In this document: piece after piece, positions 7,987 through 27,339 of the stretch
Position numbering within the stretch: the stretch's first letter is position 1
Layout: every line of letters begins with the position of its first letter
Program-made: the position numbers and the translations under genes
The notes under the pieces: model-generated
The model's input: only the letters and a program-made list of their open reading frames with translations
The model's database searches: none
Told to the model about the DNA's origin: nothing
Assembly (NCBI GenBank): GCA_031291445.1
Contig: JARLJA010000031.1
Location: 27,634 to 91,633, forward strand
Direction: 5' to 3'
From: Xanthobacteraceae bacterium
Lineage (GTDB): Bacteria > Pseudomonadota > Alphaproteobacteria > Rhizobiales > Xanthobacteraceae
DNA: 64,000 bases

Positions 7987-9585
7987 TCAGAAGGAGTAGC
8001 GCGCGCCGGCCGTCGGGGACACGTTCCAGGAGTTCAGGTAGCCGTTGACGAGGCCGCCCGCACCCGTGGTGTACATCACGCCGGCATACATATCGAAGTG
8101 CTTGGTGAAGACGTAATCGAGCACCAGCGAGGCCGAGTCGATATAGCCGCTGCAGGTGGGACTGTAGTTGGAGCTGCAGCCCGCGACACCGAAGCTCGTC
8201 TTCGTCGTGCTGGCGGCAGCGCCGGCCGGAGCCGAGGTCGTCACGGCGTTGATGGCGCCATTGCCATAGGAGTTCTGCCAGTAGTGGTAGTAGGCACCCT
8301 GGACCACGAGGTGGTCAGTTGCCTGCCACTTGGCGCCGATCCAGGCCATCTGCAGGATCTTGTCGTTCGGATAAGCGGCGTTGTTCACGAAGCTGAACGT
8401 CGTTCCGTAGTTGCTGACGAAGCCCGAATTGGCCGGGTTCGACGGATTGGCGAACTGCATCCACTCGTAGCCGGCCATCACCTCGAGCTTGACCGGACCG
8501 GTGAACTTGTACTTCGCCGTGACCATGGCGTCGGTGTTGTCGGAGAGCGTCGCGGCCAGCGAGTTCGGGCCGAACGCCGGAAGGGCGCCCGCCTGCTGTG
8601 TTGCGCTGAGCGGCGACGAAATACCGTTGATCATGCCCCGAATGCGAGCGCCCGTGGCATCGACGCTCAGACCCTGGTAGCTGAACCCAGCTGTACCCTG
8701 CAGGTCGTCGTGCACCCAGCTGGAGTTGCCGCTGTTGCCGTAATTGCCGACCTGGTACAGCACGCCGGCGTGCACCGGGCCGTAATTCCAGGTCCACTTG
8801 ATCGACTGGTCGAGACGGGCGACTTCGGTCGAACCACCGCCGCCGAAGGTGCCGGAGAAGCCGATCGGCGAGAACGCGTAGGAGGCGCCGTTCGGATCGT
8901 AGGCAATGATCTCGTCGAGCAGGAACGAGTTGTTGCGGCCGATGGTCACGGTGCCGTAGAGCGGCGACGACAGACCGACATAGGCCTGACCATTGAATGC
9001 TTGGCCGTTGCGGCTGGAGTCGCCGTTCGCGGTCCACGCCGACTGCGTCAGGCCGTTGTTCTGGTAGATCGATGCCTCACCATTGGGCAGCGTGCCCGAC
9101 ATCGGGTTGAAACCGGTTTCAATCTTGAAGATGCCGTTCAGGCCCGGCAGCAGTTCGGTCGACCCCTTCAGGCCGATGGTCGACTGCGACAGGCCGTTGG
9201 GGGTCGCCGCGAAGGTCGCGCGGTTGTTGCCCTTGGTGAGCCATTCGTTCACGCCCGACGGATCCAGGGCGTTGTAGGGCATGCCATGGGCCTGCCAGCC
9301 GTAGCCGACGTCGATGACGCCGTAGGCGCAAATGCCCTTCCAGCATAGCGAATCATCGACCGGCACGATCGGCGCAGCCTTCACAGGCATCGACAGGTCG
9401 GCGGCGCGCGCGTCGAGCAGCTTCTGGCGCTTCTCGATCGCGGCCAAGCGCTTGTTCAGCTCTTCGTTCTGCCTCTGGAGCGCCTTGGCTTCCGTCTTGA
9501 GGTCGGAGACCTCGTCCGCGTACGCAGCGCCGGCAAAACCGGCCAGGCTGAGCGCCGCTGCCGCGCAAAGTAGTTGCTTCTTCAT
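7987..9585 (-). CDS. outer membrane porin (alphaproteobacterial porin family)
   Basis: Signal peptide, short coiled-coil, then SLCWKGICAYGVIDVGYGWQAHG beta-barrel sequence ending in ...GARYSF. Confidence 0.85.
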   Translation of the reverse strand: MKKQLLCAAAALSLAGFAGAAYADEVSDLKTEAKALQRQNEELNKRLAAIEKRQKLLDARAADLSMPVKAAPIVPVDDSLCWKGICAYGVIDVGYGWQAHGMPYNALDPSGVNEWLTKGNNRATFAATPNGLSQSTIGLKGSTELLPGLNGIFKIETGFNPMSGTLPNGEASIYQNNGLTQSAWTANGDSSRNGQAFNGQAYVGLSSPLYGTVTIGRNNSFLLDEIIAYDPNGASYAFSPIGFSGTFGGGGSTEVARLDQSIKWTWNYGPVHAGVLYQVGNYGNSGNSSWVHDDLQGTAGFSYQGLSVDATGARIRGMINGISSPLSATQQAGALPAFGPNSLAATLSDNTDAMVTAKYKFTGPVKLEVMAGYEWMQFANPSNPANSGFVSNYGTTFSFVNNAAYPNDKILQMAWIGAKWQATDHLVVQGAYYHYWQNSYGNGAINAVTTSAPAGAAASTTKTSFGVAGCSSNYSPTCSGYIDSASLVLDYVFTKHFDMYAGVMYTTGAGGLVNGYLNSWNVSPTAGARYSF

Positions 9586-10767: not shown

Positions 10768-11688
10768 CTACCGCGCGCCGGCCGGAGAGTCGTCCAGCAC
10801 GCGAAATGCGTCCTCGAGTTGCGGCGACAGCTGGACACCGAGCTTTTCGCCGGTCGGCAAACGCCCCAGGAACCATTTCCTGTAGAGCGGCAGCAGGTCC
10901 TGATTGGTGGCGAGCTTCCGCATGGCGTGCTCGACGACGGCGGCGAGCTGCGGGTCGCCTTTCCGGAACATGATCCCGTAGGGATCGTAAGAGAGGAAAT
11001 CACCGACCACCTGGAACCTGGCCTCGGCCTTGTGGGTCGCGATCAGGCCGTAAAGCAGGATGTCGTCGGTCGCGAAGGCATCGGCCTTGCCTTGCTCGAG
11101 CATCTGATAGGATTGCTCGTGATCATCGGCGGTCAGGATCGTCAGTCCAAGCGTCTCCTTTCGATCAAGTGCACGGACCGCCTGTTCGTTGGTCGTGCCC
11201 CTGGTGACGACGATGCTCTTGTGGGCGAGGTCCTGGACCGACTGGACCTGCGAGGTCCGGGAGACCATCAGCTTCGTCCCCGCGATGTAGATCACCGGCG
11301 AGAAGGCCACACGCGCGGCCCGCTCCACATTGGCCGTTGTCGAGCCGCATTCGAGGTCGACGTCTCCGTTGACGACGGCATCGATGCGGCTGCCCGACGT
11401 GACCTTGATGTAGCTGATCGAGAGCGCGGGCTCGTCGACCCGCTGGCCGATCTCGTCGACGATCGCCTCGCAGATCCCGATACTGTAGCCCACCGGCCGT
11501 CCTGCACGATCCAGAAACGAGAAGGGCGGCGAACTCTCGCGATAGCCGACGCGCACGACGTGGGTCCGCTTGATCCGGTCGAGTGCCTGCGACAGTTCGC
11601 CACCGTCCGCGGCCCGCGCGGCGCCAGCCGGCAAAGCCGCCAGAGCAGCGAACACGGCGGCGCCGATGCGCCCGAAACCCTTGCGCAT
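10768..11688 (-). CDS. amino-acid ABC transporter substrate-binding protein (GltI-like)
   Basis: Signal peptide, then IKRTHVVRVGYRESSPPFSFLD..GRPVGYSIGICEAIVDEI. Start at MRKGFGR. Confidence 0.8.
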   Translation of the reverse strand: MRKGFGRIGAAVFAALAALPAGAARAADGGELSQALDRIKRTHVVRVGYRESSPPFSFLDRAGRPVGYSIGICEAIVDEIGQRVDEPALSISYIKVTSGSRIDAVVNGDVDLECGSTTANVERAARVAFSPVIYIAGTKLMVSRTSQVQSVQDLAHKSIVVTRGTTNEQAVRALDRKETLGLTILTADDHEQSYQMLEQGKADAFATDDILLYGLIATHKAEARFQVVGDFLSYDPYGIMFRKGDPQLAAVVEHAMRKLATNQDLLPLYRKWFLGRLPTGEKLGVQLSPQLEDAFRVLDDSPAGAR

Positions 11689-11690
11689 CT

Positions 11691-12977
11691 CTAGGCCGGC
11701 ACCGGATCGCCCGGCACCGTATCCGGCGGCACCACGTCGTCGGGCCTGAGTCCGTGCTCGGCCGCCAGTTCGTTCTCCCATTTCGCCACCACCGCCGTCG
11801 CCAGCGTGTTGCCGATGACGTTGGTCGCGCTGCGCCCCATGTCCAGGAAGGTGTCGATGCCCATGATCATCAACAGCCCCGCTTCGGGAATGTCGAACTG
11901 CGCCAGCGTCGAGGCGATCACCACCAGCGAGGCGCGAGGCACCCCCGCCACGCCCTTCGATGTGATCATCAGCGTCGCCAGCATCGCGAACTGGGTGCCG
12001 AGCGACATTTCAATGCGATAGCTCTGGGCGATGAAGATGCTCGCGAAGGTGCAATACATCATCGTGCCGTCGAGATTGAAGGAATATCCGAGCGGCAGCA
12101 CGAAGGACGAGATCCTGTGCGACGCCCCGAACCGGTTGAGGCCCTCCAGCGTCTTCGGATAGGCCGCCTCCGAGCTTGCGGTCGAAAACGCGATCATCAG
12201 CGGCTCGCGGATGAGCTTCAGCAGGTGGGCATAGCGTGGGCCGATGACGAGGAAGCCGACGACGACAAGGAGGGCCCAGAGGATCAACAGCGAGGCGTAG
12301 AAGCCGCCCATGAAGACGACCAGCTTCCAGAGCACCCCAAGGCCGTTCTTTGCCACCGTCGCGGTCACCGCGGCCCACACCGCGACCGGCGCGAACAGCA
12401 TCACGTAGGAGGTGACCTTGAGCATCACGTGGGCGAGGTCCTCGATCATGCTCAACATCGGCTTGGAACGCTCGGGCATCGCTCCCAGCGCCACCGAGAA
12501 GAACACGGCAAACACCACGATCTGGAGGATCTCGTTCTGCGCCATGGCGTCGGCAATCGACGTCGGGACCAGATGGGTGAGGAATTTCTCGAGCGAAAAA
12601 GCCGACACCGGAAGCCCGGTCGACTGCGTCGCCGCCGGAAGCGTCCCGGGGAAGTTGGCGCCCGGCTGCAGAAGGTTGACCATCAAGAGGCCGAGCAGCA
12701 GCGAAACGAACGAGGCCGTCAGGAACCAGCCCATGGTCTTGGCGAAGATGCGCCCGAGCCGGGCACCACTTCCCATATGGGCAATGCCGCCGACCAGTGT
12801 CGCGAACACCAGTGGGGCAATGATCATCTTGATCAGGCGCAGGAACAGCATCGCGACGAGATTGACGCTGTAGGCGAGATCGGCGCGGTTGTCCGGGAGA
12901 TATTGATAGATCAGGGCTCCCATCACGACGCCGACCAGCATCGCGCCGAGAATCTGGCCCGTAAATTTGTTGGACAT
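11691..12977 (-). CDS. dicarboxylate/amino acid:cation (DAACS) symporter
   Basis: LPLGYSFNLDGTMMYCTFASIFIAQ and IMGIDTFLDMGRSATNVIGN motifs. Confidence 0.9.
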   Translation of the reverse strand: MSNKFTGQILGAMLVGVVMGALIYQYLPDNRADLAYSVNLVAMLFLRLIKMIIAPLVFATLVGGIAHMGSGARLGRIFAKTMGWFLTASFVSLLLGLLMVNLLQPGANFPGTLPAATQSTGLPVSAFSLEKFLTHLVPTSIADAMAQNEILQIVVFAVFFSVALGAMPERSKPMLSMIEDLAHVMLKVTSYVMLFAPVAVWAAVTATVAKNGLGVLWKLVVFMGGFYASLLILWALLVVVGFLVIGPRYAHLLKLIREPLMIAFSTASSEAAYPKTLEGLNRFGASHRISSFVLPLGYSFNLDGTMMYCTFASIFIAQSYRIEMSLGTQFAMLATLMITSKGVAGVPRASLVVIASTLAQFDIPEAGLLMIMGIDTFLDMGRSATNVIGNTLATAVVAKWENELAAEHGLRPDDVVPPDTVPGDPVPA

Positions 12978-13143
12978 CAGAGATCACCTCATCCCGTGCC
13001 CCGGCCACCTCAGTATGAGGCAAATTCGCGTTTGGGCAACCGTCCCGATGGCGGCATGCGCGTGCCCGCATTCCGCGGCCCGGCCTCGATCGGCCGTGAC
13101 CGGGGCTCCGGGCAGGCCAGGTCGCCCGGCGGCGCGTTGGACT

Positions 13144-20656: not shown

Positions 20657-21820
20657 CTAGTTGTCGTTCTGGAGCAGCGAACGGTTCGGGCGCGGCGTTA
20701 CGCCCGGGGAGCTCGGTCGCGGCTGGATCGGGAGGGGCCTGGGCGCGGCGGTCGGGTCCGCGGGCGCCGCCACCGACATCTCGTGGGGAGCCGATTTCCG
20801 AAGCCGAATTTCGATGCGGCGCCGCTGCGGAATATCCGCGGCCGTGGCGCTCAAGTCCAGCGTCTCATCGATATTGACCAGTTGCGCCCCCGACAGCGGA
20901 ATGATCTTGTACCCCGCGAGCAAGGGGCTCTGGCGCAGAACGCTCACCACGGAGACCGCTCTGGCGAGCCCCAATCCGGCATTGTCCGCCGGCACCAGGT
21001 GGGCGACGGCGGCCGTGTTCTGAAGCACCGACGACATCTCGCTGTCGAGGTTGGAGACACGTACGCCCGACAACGGCTGCTCGTCGGTATGGCCGACGAC
21101 CTCGATCACGTCGACGTCATACTGCTTGATGAAGTCGAGGATCGTCCTCGGCGTCTCGGTGGTCAGGGCCGCGCGGAAGCCCGGCGACAATTCCGCGCTG
21201 CCGGTGCCGAAGAAGAAGCCGCCCGCCTCGCTCAGCGTGATGATCGGCGGCCACCGATGGCCGGATGCGACCGGCCCCGCCACGCCGCGCTGCACCGCCT
21301 CGATGATCGACTGCGGCGATTTCGCCGCGTCGGCCGCCGGCATGACGCGCTCGATGCTTCGGATGATGTCGGCATTGCGAAGTGCGGTCTTGAGGTCGAC
21401 GCCGTTGTCGCGAAGGGTCGCGGCGTCGGCCACCCGCTCGCTCAGCTCCGCCGACGACATGCCGCCCTGCTCCGCCTGCACCACGAGCGCCCTGCCGTCG
21501 ATAAGCTCCCGCCAGAACTCGTCCACCGCGTGGGCGTTGCCTGAATGGATCGCGGCCTGGAGGCGCTCCACAAGGTCCGGGTTGCGGCGCAGAGCCTCCA
21601 CGAGGGGCTGATCGCGCTCGCTCCGCTCCCGCTGCTCCTTGAGGACGTGCTCGAGAATCCCCCGCTTGCCCTGTTCGGAATGAAGCACCGTCGCCATGGC
21701 GATCAGAAGACAGAAGATCAGGAGGATCATGATCTCCGCCATGGTCAAGCCCAGCACCAGCCCCTGCCGGTAGGCGGCACCCTGGCGCGTGATCTGACCG
21801 TCGATGCCGTGACCGCTCAT
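20657..21820 (-). CDS. MotB/ZorB-like OmpA-domain protein
   Basis: N-terminal TM GLTMAEIMILLIFCLLIAMATV, long linker, C-terminal OmpA-like VVGHTDEQPL... LARAVSVVSVL...RRRIEIRL. Confidence 0.75.
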   Translation of the reverse strand: MSGHGIDGQITRQGAAYRQGLVLGLTMAEIMILLIFCLLIAMATVLHSEQGKRGILEHVLKEQRERSERDQPLVEALRRNPDLVERLQAAIHSGNAHAVDEFWRELIDGRALVVQAEQGGMSSAELSERVADAATLRDNGVDLKTALRNADIIRSIERVMPAADAAKSPQSIIEAVQRGVAGPVASGHRWPPIITLSEAGGFFFGTGSAELSPGFRAALTTETPRTILDFIKQYDVDVIEVVGHTDEQPLSGVRVSNLDSEMSSVLQNTAAVAHLVPADNAGLGLARAVSVVSVLRQSPLLAGYKIIPLSGAQLVNIDETLDLSATAADIPQRRRIEIRLRKSAPHEMSVAAPADPTAAPRPLPIQPRPSSPGVTPRPNRSLLQNDN

Positions 21821-21846
21821 GCGATGAACCTCCCAGATCCTCAGGC

Positions 21847-22902
21847 TCAGGTAACCTCGTCATCCCGCGACGGCGCGCCGGGCACGGCGGCTTCGCGCTC
21901 CGGTGCCGGAGGCTCGCGAGGCGCGGTCCGCTCGCTCGCGGAGCGGATTTCCGTCGCCAGACTGGCGATGGCCGCGGCGATCTTCCGGGTCTCCGCAAGG
22001 TTCAGGCTGGCCGCTTCGGCCTGTCTGGCGACGGCCCCGTCGAACGCGGTGACGGCTCGCGACAGGTCCTGGATCAGCGGCTGCAGCTTGACCTCGATGA
22101 TGTTGTCGGGCACCCGCACCGCCGCAAGCTTGGACACGAAATCGTCAACCTCGGCAACGATCGACTGGGTGCTGCGTGACAGCCGATTGGCCTCCTCCGC
22201 CAGTTGCTGCGAGGCGCTCTCGATGGTCTCCGCGGTACGGTCGGTCAGCCTGGCCATGGCTTCGCCGGAGGCGCGCGACGCCTCCTCCAGCGGCTTGCTC
22301 GTCGACCTCGCGAGGTCGGCCATCTGGGCAGCCAGATGCTCCTTCGTGCTCGCGAAAAGTTCCTCGAGCTCGACGAGTGCGTCCATCATCGACTGCTGGC
22401 TCATGCGGCGAAAGTAGCCGAACTCGAGCACCGAGCTGTCGAGTTCCCGCTTGACCCTCCGCGACGCGTCCGCCAGTTCCAGCCGCGCCGTCGCCTCGAC
22501 CTCGACCGGGTCGCGCCGCATCTGGTTGAACAGGATCCGCAGGGCGATCCCCGAGATCGTGGAGGCAATCGCTATACCGAAATTCTGGACGATCTGTTCG
22601 GACGAGCCGGCGGCCGAAAACTGAAACAGCGACACCGCGAGGCTGGTGAGCGTAAACAGGAACCCCATGTAGTAGAGGTTGTCTCCGGACTGATCGTCGC
22701 GAAGGCGAAACAGCCGCGCCACTCCGAGCAGCACCGCATAAACCAGCATGATCAGGACCGGCACCGCCGTGACCAGGATGGCTGGAAACTCCCCGATCTT
22801 CGACACCACGATATAGCTGCAGCCGACCAGCACCACGGCAAAGAACAGCAGCCCGCCGAGCAGCCCGGGATACAGCACTGGCTGCGTGGTGGTCCGCGTC
22901 AT
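21847..22902 (-). CDS. MotA/ExbB-like membrane protein with long coiled-coil tail
   Basis: Four hydrophobic segments including NLYYMGFLFTLTSLAVSLFQF and VQNFGIAIASTISGIALRILFNQMRRDP, then an alpha-helical tail. Confidence 0.6.
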   Translation of the reverse strand: MTRTTTQPVLYPGLLGGLLFFAVVLVGCSYIVVSKIGEFPAILVTAVPVLIMLVYAVLLGVARLFRLRDDQSGDNLYYMGFLFTLTSLAVSLFQFSAAGSSEQIVQNFGIAIASTISGIALRILFNQMRRDPVEVEATARLELADASRRVKRELDSSVLEFGYFRRMSQQSMMDALVELEELFASTKEHLAAQMADLARSTSKPLEEASRASGEAMARLTDRTAETIESASQQLAEEANRLSRSTQSIVAEVDDFVSKLAAVRVPDNIIEVKLQPLIQDLSRAVTAFDGAVARQAEAASLNLAETRKIAAAIASLATEIRSASERTAPREPPAPEREAAVPGAPSRDDEVT

Positions 22903-22906
22903 GTCT

Positions 22907-23734
22907 TCACATTCCCTGCAAGCGCTGCACCGAACCGAAGGTCCCCCTGTTGTCGAGGATCCACTCCCGCCAGAATTCCGCGTGCTTCAGCGTATCGATC
23001 CTGACGCCGCCGCGCTGGACGTAACGGATGTCCACGTGGGCACCGTGGAGATCGGTCCGGAATTTCAGATAGGCCGGCGACTGCCTGAAGCGCTGATAGG
23101 ACAGATCACCCGCCGCCGGATACTGGCTGTAGTCTCGCGTATATTCCAGCATGTCGGAAATGACGATCAGGTTCTTGGCAATGCCCTGGGCCTGATCCGA
23201 CGAAAACTGGTCGATGGCGATGTCCTGGATCGCCGCCATGATCGGCGAACTGGTGGCCTTGGCGGCGGCCAGGCTGCTGGCGACCGCCTCCCTGGCCGGC
23301 CGACGGAAGCTCTCGATCCACTGCATGCGGGCGATGCGCGGGTTTGCGGTCCACTCGCTCAGGCCCGCGCCGTCGCCCGGATTGCATTTCGAGAACAGCG
23401 ACCGGCTCCGCGCTGCAGGAATGTCGAGCACGCGGATGTCGAGCTTGTGATAGTCCGGCAAACCCGTGATCAGGTCGTCGAGCATGCCGAGCACTTGTCG
23501 CTTGGTGGTGTCGGGGAGATCGTCGGACGTATCCACCAGCACCACCGTGATCCCGGCCGGGCCTTTGACCGGGCAAAGAGTCCCGGCATCGAGCTGCGGC
23601 GGCTGGGGAACCGCGATATAAAAATAGGCCAGAGCGCCGAAAGCCGCCACCGCGAGCACCAGCAATGCGGCTCCGGCGACGGCGGCAGCGCTCAATCCGC
23701 CGTTCCGCCGGGGTCTGCCGCGGCGCCTAGCCAC
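22907..23734 (-). CDS. membrane-anchored vWA-like protein
   Basis: N-terminal TM followed by GITVVLVDTSDDLPDTTKRQ and KNLIVISDMLEYT, a vWA-like pair with an imperfect MIDAS. Confidence 0.5.
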   Translation of the reverse strand: MARRRGRPRRNGGLSAAAVAGAALLVLAVAAFGALAYFYIAVPQPPQLDAGTLCPVKGPAGITVVLVDTSDDLPDTTKRQVLGMLDDLITGLPDYHKLDIRVLDIPAARSRSLFSKCNPGDGAGLSEWTANPRIARMQWIESFRRPAREAVASSLAAAKATSSPIMAAIQDIAIDQFSSDQAQGIAKNLIVISDMLEYTRDYSQYPAAGDLSYQRFRQSPAYLKFRTDLHGAHVDIRYVQRGGVRIDTLKHAEFWREWILDNRGTFGSVQRLQGM

Positions 23735-25196
23735 CCCTGCGCTCCGGACTCTTGCGCTCCGGAATCATGTCGTCGATTTCGCGATAGGAGCGCACTGCGT
23801 TCTCGAAGGTTTCGTGGATCGCTCGGATCTCGCCCTGCAGCAGCTTGCGCGTCTCTTCGATCGCGGCGACGAGCTCGGCGCGATCGGCGGTTTCCGTGTC
23901 CGAAACCGCGGGATCGATGCGGGCCATGACATACGGCCTGGCGAAGTGTTCCGGCGCGGGCGTGCTCCGGCTCTTCTGGTTCGCCTCGCGATAGATCGCG
24001 AGCAGCGCACGGGAGGACCTCTCGATGTGGTTCTGGTGTTCGACGAAGCGCTGCGACAGCCGGCCACGCGCGGCCAGCAAGGCGTCGAGCTCGTTGCGCC
24101 GCGTCGCCAAGTCCCTGGCGGCCTCGTTCATGACCTCGGTCGCATCGTCCCTGATCTCCCGCAGATCCTCGATCAAGGCCGCCTTCTGCTCGGTGTACTG
24201 CCTGCTGGCATCGATCCACCGGCGCTCCAGACCGGCATAGCCGATATAGGGATCGAAGAACATCAGGCCGTCCGCGACGGCAATGAGCGAGAACACGAAG
24301 CCGACGCCGAAGAACACCCACGAATTGACGTCATGCAGGACATGAGGGGTCGTGAGCATCTGGACCAGGACCTCATGACCGACATTGCCGCCGAGCGTCG
24401 GCGGAATCTCGCGCAAATGCGACAGCGTCAGGTTCAGGACCACCGCAAATGCGAAATAGGCCAGCAGCGAGATCAGGCCCAGGAACTTGACCAGGACGTT
24501 GCGGCGATTGATCAGCCGGATCGGGAACAGGCCCCACAGAAAGCTGGCAACGATGTTGAGGGCCGCGAAGCTCACCGCCTGGACCGCGCCGCCCAACAGC
24601 CCGCCCAGGTTCGATGCCGCCAGGAAACTGCCGTTGATCGTGACCTCGACGACGAACAGGATGGCCAGCAGGCCAACCTTGAGCAGCATCTTTCCAGGCG
24701 TTGCCAGGCGCGCCGGACGCGCAATCCTGTGCCTCGCGCGAAAGTGATCCCGTTCGAGCTCGGATTCGTACAGCCGCCGGCGCAGGGCGAACAACTGGTC
24801 GCGGCCGAGCGCCGCCTCGGCCACGAAGTCTCCGACCGCTTCGGGCGCGGCCTGCTGAATGACGGCGAAGCGCTCCTCGAAATTCAGCGCGATCAATCGA
24901 TCGCCATAGGTGTGAAGATGCTCCAGATAGATCGCGTGCGCATCCTGCTTGTGCGCCTCGATGCGCTCCACGATCAGGTGCTCGACGTCGTCGAGAGTCT
25001 GCGACTCGGCGGGAGGGCGGTCCATCGCGCCGCGCTCGGTCCCGCGCTGGACGATCTGCAATTCGTCCGCAATCCGGTCGGTGCTCAAATCGACGAAGAT
25101 CTGGGTCGAAGGGCGGTAGTCGTGCCGGGGCTGGCCCAAAAGGGACATCAGTCGCCTGAGGGCGGACTTTCTCGTGACAGTACCAGGCTCCCGCAT
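23727..25196 (-). CDS. multi-TM protein with C-terminal coiled coil, unknown function
   Basis: Start at MREPGTVTR (alternative 25148). Four hydrophobic segments followed by a long helical region. 8-nt overlap with the next gene. Confidence 0.6.
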   Translation of the reverse strand: MREPGTVTRKSALRRLMSLLGQPRHDYRPSTQIFVDLSTDRIADELQIVQRGTERGAMDRPPAESQTLDDVEHLIVERIEAHKQDAHAIYLEHLHTYGDRLIALNFEERFAVIQQAAPEAVGDFVAEAALGRDQLFALRRRLYESELERDHFRARHRIARPARLATPGKMLLKVGLLAILFVVEVTINGSFLAASNLGGLLGGAVQAVSFAALNIVASFLWGLFPIRLINRRNVLVKFLGLISLLAYFAFAVVLNLTLSHLREIPPTLGGNVGHEVLVQMLTTPHVLHDVNSWVFFGVGFVFSLIAVADGLMFFDPYIGYAGLERRWIDASRQYTEQKAALIEDLREIRDDATEVMNEAARDLATRRNELDALLAARGRLSQRFVEHQNHIERSSRALLAIYREANQKSRSTPAPEHFARPYVMARIDPAVSDTETADRAELVAAIEETRKLLQGEIRAIHETFENAVRSYREIDDMIPERKSPERRGG

Positions 25197-25584
25197 AGGG
25201 TGTCGTTCCGAACGAAATTTCAAACCTGCGGCGCCTGCCGCTCGCGACCGCGCTTCAGCCCCGGCGCCGTCGGACTGTCGAATGATAGTCCGAATCGCGG
25301 CAGCGCCGACCACTGTGGGATATTGGTCAATTGCGACGCAAATTGCAGCCTCACGCCGCAGGCGTTTTGCAGAACCCGAAGGATATATCGCGCTGCCGCA
25401 GGTCGGGAAACGGCAATACTCTTGCTTTTTGGGCGATGAGTGTTTACGTTAGGGACGTTCGATTAGCCGCTGTGCCTTGTTGAATGCGCCCGCGGGCTCT
25501 TTTCTCAAAGACATCGTCGGATTGAATTTTGATCGCGCGATCGTTCGCGCGAGTTGCGCGCGCGTGCGCCGTGGAGAAGAGAAT

Positions 25585-26554: not shown

Positions 26555-26577
26555 TGGCTTTACTCCTGATCAGCACC

Positions 26578-26680
26578 AGATCATGATGCGATCAAAGTGA
26601 ATCGCATCATGATCTCATCTCTTTGTTTGAGCATGATCTTTTCGGAAAACCGGCTTCCACTTTTCCGGATCATGCTCTAG
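26578..26680. repeat. composite palindromic intergenic repeat element
   Basis: Perfect 15-bp inverted repeat AGATCATGATGCGAT-N8-ATCGCATCATGATCT, next to GAGCATGATCTTTTCGGAAAACCGGCTTCCACTTTTCCGGATCATGCTCTA, itself an imperfect palindrome. Confidence 0.8.
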
Positions 26681-27339
26681 GCGGCCTGCCGGAACGGAGC
26701 GGTCTCGCGGCGGCGCGCCGAAACCGCGCAGCCACAGTCGTGAACCGTTCCGCCCTCGATGACGAAGCCGCGCCGCTCCAGCGCTGCGCGCAGGTTCTGG
26801 CTGGCCGCCGGCTTCTGCGGATCGACCCAGACCACCAGCATGGCGCCGGGGCTGAGAAAGTCCACCAGCCAGTCGAGCGTCGTCTCCAGAGCCTTGAACG
26901 TGCGCCGCCGCCAGTCGACCAGGGCGACGTCGTATTGGCCGGCCGGGTGGCCGCAATTCGCCGTCGCCGCGGCGCGCTGGTAACCACGGCGGTGCAACTC
27001 GAGCGTCTGCTCAATGCTTCTGGAGCCGGCCACCATGATGCGGTGCTGCGCTCGGCAGCCGGCAAGCGCGATCATCGGTTCAATAACCCGGTCGCCCGTG
27101 GGCGCCGGTCGGAGAGTGGTCATCGTGTCACCATTCAAATGCGTGCCCGCGAACATCGCGCCGGTTGTGGTCGCGATCGCGGACACCCAGGACAGTGTCT
27201 GCAACATGGGCAGGATCGCATAGGGAAGCGAGAGGGGTCCGAACACGACGACATAGGGATTTCGTATAGGGCGAGGAGCGTCGTCGAATCGATCGATGCT
27301 GCGAAGCTGAGAGAAGTCGAACACCGGAAGCTCATGCAT
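26677..27339 (-). CDS. hypothetical protein with Rossmann/SAM-methyltransferase-like segment
   Basis: YDVALVDWRRRTFKALETTLDWLVDFLSPGAMLVVWVDPQK. Confidence 0.5.
   Translation of the reverse strand: MHELPVFDFSQLRSIDRFDDAPRPIRNPYVVVFGPLSLPYAILPMLQTLSWVSAIATTTGAMFAGTHLNGDTMTTLRPAPTGDRVIEPMIALAGCRAQHRIMVAGSRSIEQTLELHRRGYQRAAATANCGHPAGQYDVALVDWRRRTFKALETTLDWLVDFLSPGAMLVVWVDPQKPAASQNLRAALERRGFVIEGGTVHDCGCAVSARRRETAPFRQAA

Follow-up and report, generated by a model that had tools for sequence, protein, structure and literature searches.

A Zorya-like four-gene envelope operon of Alphaproteobacteria, proposed to be ion-motive and to work with a periplasmic nuclease

Introduction

What could be the role of a bacterial operon that combines a pair of proteins resembling ion-driven motors with two further membrane proteins? 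The question is raised by four adjacent genes, here named P4, P3, P2 and P1 in the order of their transcription, found in 64,000 nucleotides (nt) of DNA from a Xanthobacteraceae bacterium (contig JARLJA010000031.1 of assembly GCA_031291445.1), a stretch referred to below as the window. The initial annotation of this DNA had proposed an ion-motive envelope system, leaving envelope mechanics, transport and defence as possible purposes. The comparisons described here favour defence, because nucleases are linked or fused to the system, because its relatives occur in plasmid, prophage-like and defence-gene contexts, and because its putative motor resembles ZorAB. The reading that we put forward, and in which we place roughly even confidence, is that the operon belongs to a Zorya-like machine of the envelope, ion-motive and equipped with an extracytoplasmic nuclease, and that this machine most likely serves immunity against invading DNA.

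Two known systems give a background to this proposal. For a motor in immunity the precedent is Zorya (PMC11890865). For action at the place of entry it is SNIPE, a nuclease of the membrane that cleaves phage DNA as it is injected (PMC13190303). Zorya taught that ion motors can drive immunity, its effectors being cytoplasmic.

A Conserved Four-Gene Operon

The four genes lie on the minus strand exactly where they had been annotated (Table 1), with spacings of -8, +4 and +26 nt between P4/P3, P3/P2 and P2/P1, respectively. The numbers of transmembrane (TM) helices predicted initially were also borne out, by hydropathy for P1 (one), P3 (one) and P4 (about four) and by an AlphaFold2 (AF2) model for P2 (four). 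Profile searches of the neighbourhoods of relatives recovered P4-P3-P2-P1 in the same order and on the same strand in 41/41 intact loci, meaning that the operon is more than a chance arrangement; beyond these, one locus is truncated at the edge of its contig, and in eight distant ones P4 and P3 alone are present.

No existing name was found for the cluster in Pfam, PADLOC (2023), NCBIfam (2026) or the open-licence literature. P3 and P4 belong to no family of Pfam, NCBIfam or PADLOC, and the signals of P2 and P1 are limited to weak ones for ZorA, ZorB and OmpA. No description of the module was found in the open-licence literature or in the 2023 PADLOC copy, and it may have been named elsewhere. 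The initial annotation had itself named three grounds for giving up its proposal, namely homologues scattered without conserved linkage, a P2 unrelated to MotA, TolQ and ExbB, and a match to a named system. The proposal withstands all three, and the comparisons support the view of an undescribed, non-flagellar envelope machine of four genes that is proposed to be ion-motive.

The Putative Motor Pair

P1 presents one TM helix containing E29, an OmpA-like domain at about residues 195-345 and a Pro-rich C-terminal end. The best match of its family profile is the solved ZorB II (8vvi_A, E 1.8e-9), and further matches, which include a Pal-type domain, are PA0833, MotS and PomB. An A-E motif with E29 in the TM helix is invariant in 39/39 readable relatives, and by our reading this residue would align with the ion-carrying Asp of ZorB (D24/D21 in PMC11890865). 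The peptidoglycan-binding OmpA-like domain annotated in P1 proved real: the window copy gives a weak signal that stays below the Pfam cut-off (E 0.028), and relatives (L010, L054 and L055) exceed this cut-off. The PADLOC ZorB1 model matches the OmpA part only (E 0.0014, 16 bits). In three loci (L043 12563-13573, L044 12507-13400 and L046 12458-13615) the TM motif of P1 is kept and a C-terminal domain with a PxCW motif replaces OmpA, the anchor domain thus being exchangeable as well.

In P2, four TM-length helices are followed by a long and variable coiled-coil tail, whose length ranges from about 200 to 500 amino acids (aa) among relatives. T84 (TM3) and T115 (TM4) are conserved, which places Ser/Thr at the sites expected for such motors. 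The AF2 model covers residues 1-186 with a predicted local distance difference test (pLDDT) value of 76, and its best Foldseek match is ZorA II (8vvi_C; probability 0.99, root-mean-square deviation 2.3 over 87 columns), at an E of 0.61 that is not significant; PomA, MotA, ExbB and TolQ follow as weaker matches. The kinship of P2 with MotA, TolQ and ExbB claimed initially therefore stands as regards the predicted fold, which is nearest to ZorA II, whereas profile-profile comparison alone does not detect it (probability of 1.9% against the ZorA of the same genome and 0.3% against ExbB/TolQ). In profile searches of the PDB, coiled coils crowded the results for full-length P2, and its TM part gave no match. 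None of the models in the curated libraries reaches its cut-off on P2: NF033914 (ZorA) attains 24.4 bits against a cut-off of 190, in the coiled-coil region only, PADLOC ZorA1 gives an E of 0.005, and PF01618 does not match, whereas eight loci of the same genome do match it. Pairwise BLAST of P2 and P1 with the ZorA and ZorB of their host genome returned only coiled-coil and short OmpA matches. We take P2 to be quite probably a MotA/ZorA-like protein.

Nucleases Linked and Fused to the Module

A nuclease is attached in 23/41 relatives, in three forms: free with a signal peptide, anchored to the membrane, or fused to the periplasmic end of P1. In the closest relatives (L014, L015, L016, L052 and L057), the gene of a thermonuclease (SNase) that appears to have a signal peptide stops 0-20 nt short of P4 on its upstream side, and in others the SNase gene lies downstream of P1 or adjoins the module on the opposite strand. 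Three P1 proteins carry SNase at their periplasmic end, in the order OmpA then SNase (L040, L047 and L054), and a single one ends in a GmrSD_C nuclease of HNH type (L055); Pfam calls both domains in each of these fusions. The linked SNases score above the Pfam cut-off for PF00565, a domain absent from the window itself, and their active site is intact, the equivalents of D19, D21, T22, R35, D40, E43 and R87 being invariant in 13/13 sequences, fusions included.

A set of 27 module-bearing genomes (145 Mb) contains 64 SNase loci, and in 10 of these genomes an SNase stands at the module, against 0.12 expected (P ~2e-16). In the P4 tree the three SNase fusions appear as independent events, and the arrangement changes at least 16 times. 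That nucleases have been recruited to one place again and again is the strongest indication of a machine that would work with a nuclease on the periplasmic side.

Two loci show additional features. Just upstream of P4, L043 contains a frame-broken SNase gene remnant (8684-8920 and 8700-8816), and in L055 a protein of 746 aa, which weakly matches TOP6A/Spo11 Toprim, is encoded directly upstream of the HNH-fused module, on the same strand (10787-13027).

The Additional Membrane Proteins

P3 consists of an Arg-rich N-terminus, one TM helix and a domain of the von Willebrand factor A (vWA) type. The earlier vWA-like call is backed by fold comparison, since the Foldseek list of its AF2 model (pLDDT 79.6) is made mostly of integrin I and VWF A domains (E 2e-5, probability 1.0), with modest TM-scores of ~0.4 by query and 0.5 by isolated domains. 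D68/D71, S163-P164 and S193-D194 sit at the positions of vWA metal-site residues; the site is altered, with D-x-[ST]-D in place of DxSxS, and nine members gave no Pfam match. Two invariant Cys residues (C54 and C117), together with the Arg-rich N-terminus, suggest that the vWA domain is located in the periplasm.

P4, which is kept in all loci, is a new family. According to hydropathy, a soluble N-terminal part of ~165 aa is followed by about four TM helices and a helical C-terminal part of ~170 aa; N214, H260, R262 and D315 are invariant. The eight distant P4+P3 pairs lacking P2 and P1 are those of L048, L049, L050, L056 and L124-L127, among which L049 and L056 show the same chromosomal context in two genomes. 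These pairs suggest that P4-P3 is an older unit with a role of its own.

Distribution and Genomic Context

P4 homologues were found in 13/385 genomes of the class, 10/399 of the phylum, 26/398 of the order and 3/150 of the family. The module was found in Alphaproteobacteria only, all 10 phylum-level matches belonging to the same class, and three genomes of the same genus do not have it. It is carried by chromosomes, by alphaproteobacterial plasmids (11/24 records typed conjugative), by Bradyrhizobium genomes and by two contigs classed as viral. The patchy spread and the carriage by plasmids identify the module as accessory and mobile. Named phages gave no match; among viral contigs the P4 and P3 patterns found no relatives and the P2 search found two complete modules, these being the two viral-class contigs, where the module and SNase adjoin a serine recombinase.

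Defence genes near some of the relatives include SNIPE/PD-Lambda-1 (L013), AbiEii (L041), Cas10 (L046), an OLD/GajA-like gene (L043), a type II restriction-modification pair (L057) and GmrSD (L129); a DUF4011/MTES_1575 helicase is a further neighbour. The number of PADLOC families matched was 113 near modules and 22 in matched controls (distant regions of the same genomes), an enrichment that is suggestive only, being driven by few proteins and loci.

Comparison with Known Systems

Zorya I is composed of ZorA-ZorB-ZorC-ZorD and Zorya II of ZorA-ZorB-ZorE. The module shares with them a MotA-like protein with a long cytoplasmic coiled-coil tail, a MotB-like peptidoglycan-binding protein and a link to nucleases, and the P1 profile and the P2 fold both have their best match in one solved complex, ZorAB II (8vvi). 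It differs in having two more conserved membrane proteins, the vWA protein P3 and the multi-TM P4, in carrying its TM carboxylate as a Glu in P1 where an Asp is reported for ZorB (PMC11890865), and in its nuclease, which is a periplasmic SNase or GmrSD_C rather than the ZorE nickase or ZorC/D. Neither the ZorA nor the ZorB model accepts the module, which by family models is not Zorya. The reported absence of Zorya effectors nearby also held, as none of the nine window neighbours has a PADLOC match to ZorC/ZorD, ZorE or ZorF/ZorG, their only match being to a cold-shock-domain model.

With SNIPE/PD-Lambda-1 (DUF4041), a homologue of which adjoins the module in L013, the common point is a membrane-located nuclease, used by SNIPE at the site of DNA entry; SNIPE has no motor and no peptidoglycan-binding or vWA part, and its nuclease is of the GIY-YIG type (PMC13190303). 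Systems of the vWA-TolQ type also encode a TM-anchored vWA protein next to an ion-motor gene. However, they have no MotB/TolR gene, or they display the SHLS motif or the transpore Asp (PMC12204202), whereas the P3 helix has neither of these features and a separate MotB-like P1 is present. P3 was consequently rejected as a known vWA-TolQ transducer. Finally, a 5:2 ion-driven stator architecture is presumed to be common to the module and to MotAB, ExbBD and TolQR, from which the module differs by the absence of a flagellar, TonB or Tol partner and by P2 escaping PF01618.

Proposed Function and Alternative Explanations

In the mechanism that we propose, five P2 subunits would surround the TM helices of two P1 subunits, with P1 anchored to the peptidoglycan. 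Ions would pass P1 Glu29 and the P2 Ser/Thr residues, and the complex would thereby be turned or strained. The periplasmic vWA domain of P3, together with P4, may sense or dock a breach and relay the signal, P3 as a sensor or adaptor and P4 as a multi-TM partner or membrane scaffold that is found with P3 even where the motor is missing. A swappable periplasmic nuclease, whether free, anchored or fused to P1, would then cut phage or conjugative DNA crossing the envelope. A bolder version, which we hold tentatively and with more doubt than belief, is that of a separate immunity class, in which a rotary motor like ZorAB would position or switch on the nuclease at the inner membrane, on its periplasmic face. 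Interchangeable nucleases would be borne on the peptidoglycan-bound stator arm, and the DNA of an entering phage or plasmid would be cut in the envelope, without having reached the cytoplasm.

Several observations weigh against the defensive reading. Modules with no recognisable nuclease nearby, that of the window included, amount to 17/41, and the genes immediately next to the window module are neither defence nor mobile genes. The narrow base of the defence-gene enrichment counts on the same side, as do the non-significant Foldseek match of P2 and its undetected kinship in profile-profile comparison. Moreover, SNase and GmrSD_C domains are also found in secreted nucleases unrelated to defence.

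Three other explanations have to be considered. The module could be accessory machinery of the envelope that serves a housekeeping or niche function, in outer-membrane or peptidoglycan mechanics or in transport, energised like Tol-Pal or the vWA transducers, the nuclease being incidental or clearing periplasmic DNA. Peptidoglycan-binding and vWA domains would suit force transfer, a role in transducing force has been proposed for vWA genes next to TolQ-like motors (PMC12204202), several copies sit among ordinary metabolic genes, and the motor-less P4-P3 pairs include two genomes with a shared chromosomal context. Nevertheless, a patchy spread with carriage by plasmids and viral-class contigs is unexpected of a mechanical device, as are the repeated recruitment and fusion of nucleases and the exchange of SNase for HNH, and we regard this explanation as unlikely. 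It is rather improbable that the module blocks or processes extracellular DNA at large, in conjugation, transformation or scavenging, with a motor that pulls or locates DNA in the periplasm and no anti-phage role. The periplasmic destination of the nuclease, by signal peptide, TM anchor or P1 fusion, agrees with such a role, as do the many plasmid copies with their conjugative records, but competence or conjugation genes are not conserved beside the module, which also occurs on viral-class contigs.

A diverged subtype of Zorya proper, whose cytoplasmic tail recruits a still unrecognised cytoplasmic effector and for which the periplasmic nuclease is an add-on, would account for the ZorA-like long coiled coil kept by P2, for ZorA II and ZorB II being the nearest structures and for the 17 modules devoid of a periplasmic nuclease. 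This we judge improbable: the ZorA and ZorB models stay far under their cut-offs (24 bits against 190 for ZorA_1, while the true ZorA of the genome scores 526 bits), the tail varies widely in length, and clustering of the neighbours reveals no conserved cytoplasmic effector gene.

If the reading as an immune machine with an extracytoplasmic nuclease is correct, the nuclease-fused stator arm would tie the effector physically and directly to the motor. DNA would be cut in the envelope, and location would separate self from non-self, as has been suggested for SNIPE. Several conserved hypothetical families of Alphaproteobacteria, including those on rhizobial plasmids such as pRL11, would also find an explanation.

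The Window Copy and Its Host Genome

Table 1. Genes of the module in the window, from open reading frame (ORF) calls, and the position corresponding to the upstream SNase of its closest relatives.
Feature	Position	Strand	Description
P4	23727..25196	-	489 aa; opens the operon; signature gene of the module; ORF call
P3	22907..23734	-	275 aa, GTG start; TM helix and vWA-type domain; ORF call
P2	21847..22902	-	351 aa; MotA/ZorA-like; ORF call
P1	20657..21820	-	387 aa; MotB/ZorB-like; ORF call
Probable former SNase site	25197..25476		position of the upstream SNase in the closest relatives; none left here

In the P4 tree the window copy is nested in the clade with an upstream SNase (supports 100/100 and 99/88). 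Since the other members of this clade carry that gene, the window copy has most likely lost its linked SNase. A six-frame profile search of the whole 64-kb window found neither an SNase nor a decayed one, ruling out a hidden or decayed copy there. The module in the window may be a reduced form, or an effector or partner encoded elsewhere may act with it in trans.

The host genome encodes elsewhere, on contig C88, an SNase paralogue with a C-terminal domain (L059 1207-2007, minus strand). It shares ~38-43% identity with the SNases that are linked to modules in its bacterial family. Its catalytic Asp/Arg/Glu motif is replaced, and it is likely a pseudoenzyme.

Contig C59 of the same genome carries a ZorA of Zorya I, scoring 526 bits, and after it a ZorB (L069 1297-3288, L008 958-1857). 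With the true ZorA and ZorB located there, the possibility that the window operon is the Zorya of its host was rejected, and the strain would possess two ZorAB-like machines.

In a comparison with empty sites of the same genus, the flank of the module was not syntenic and contained a dispersed repeat. This repeat, of ~110 bp and located at ~26574-26684 of the window, occurs in many copies in the host genome and in genomes of the same genus, at 68-96% identity.

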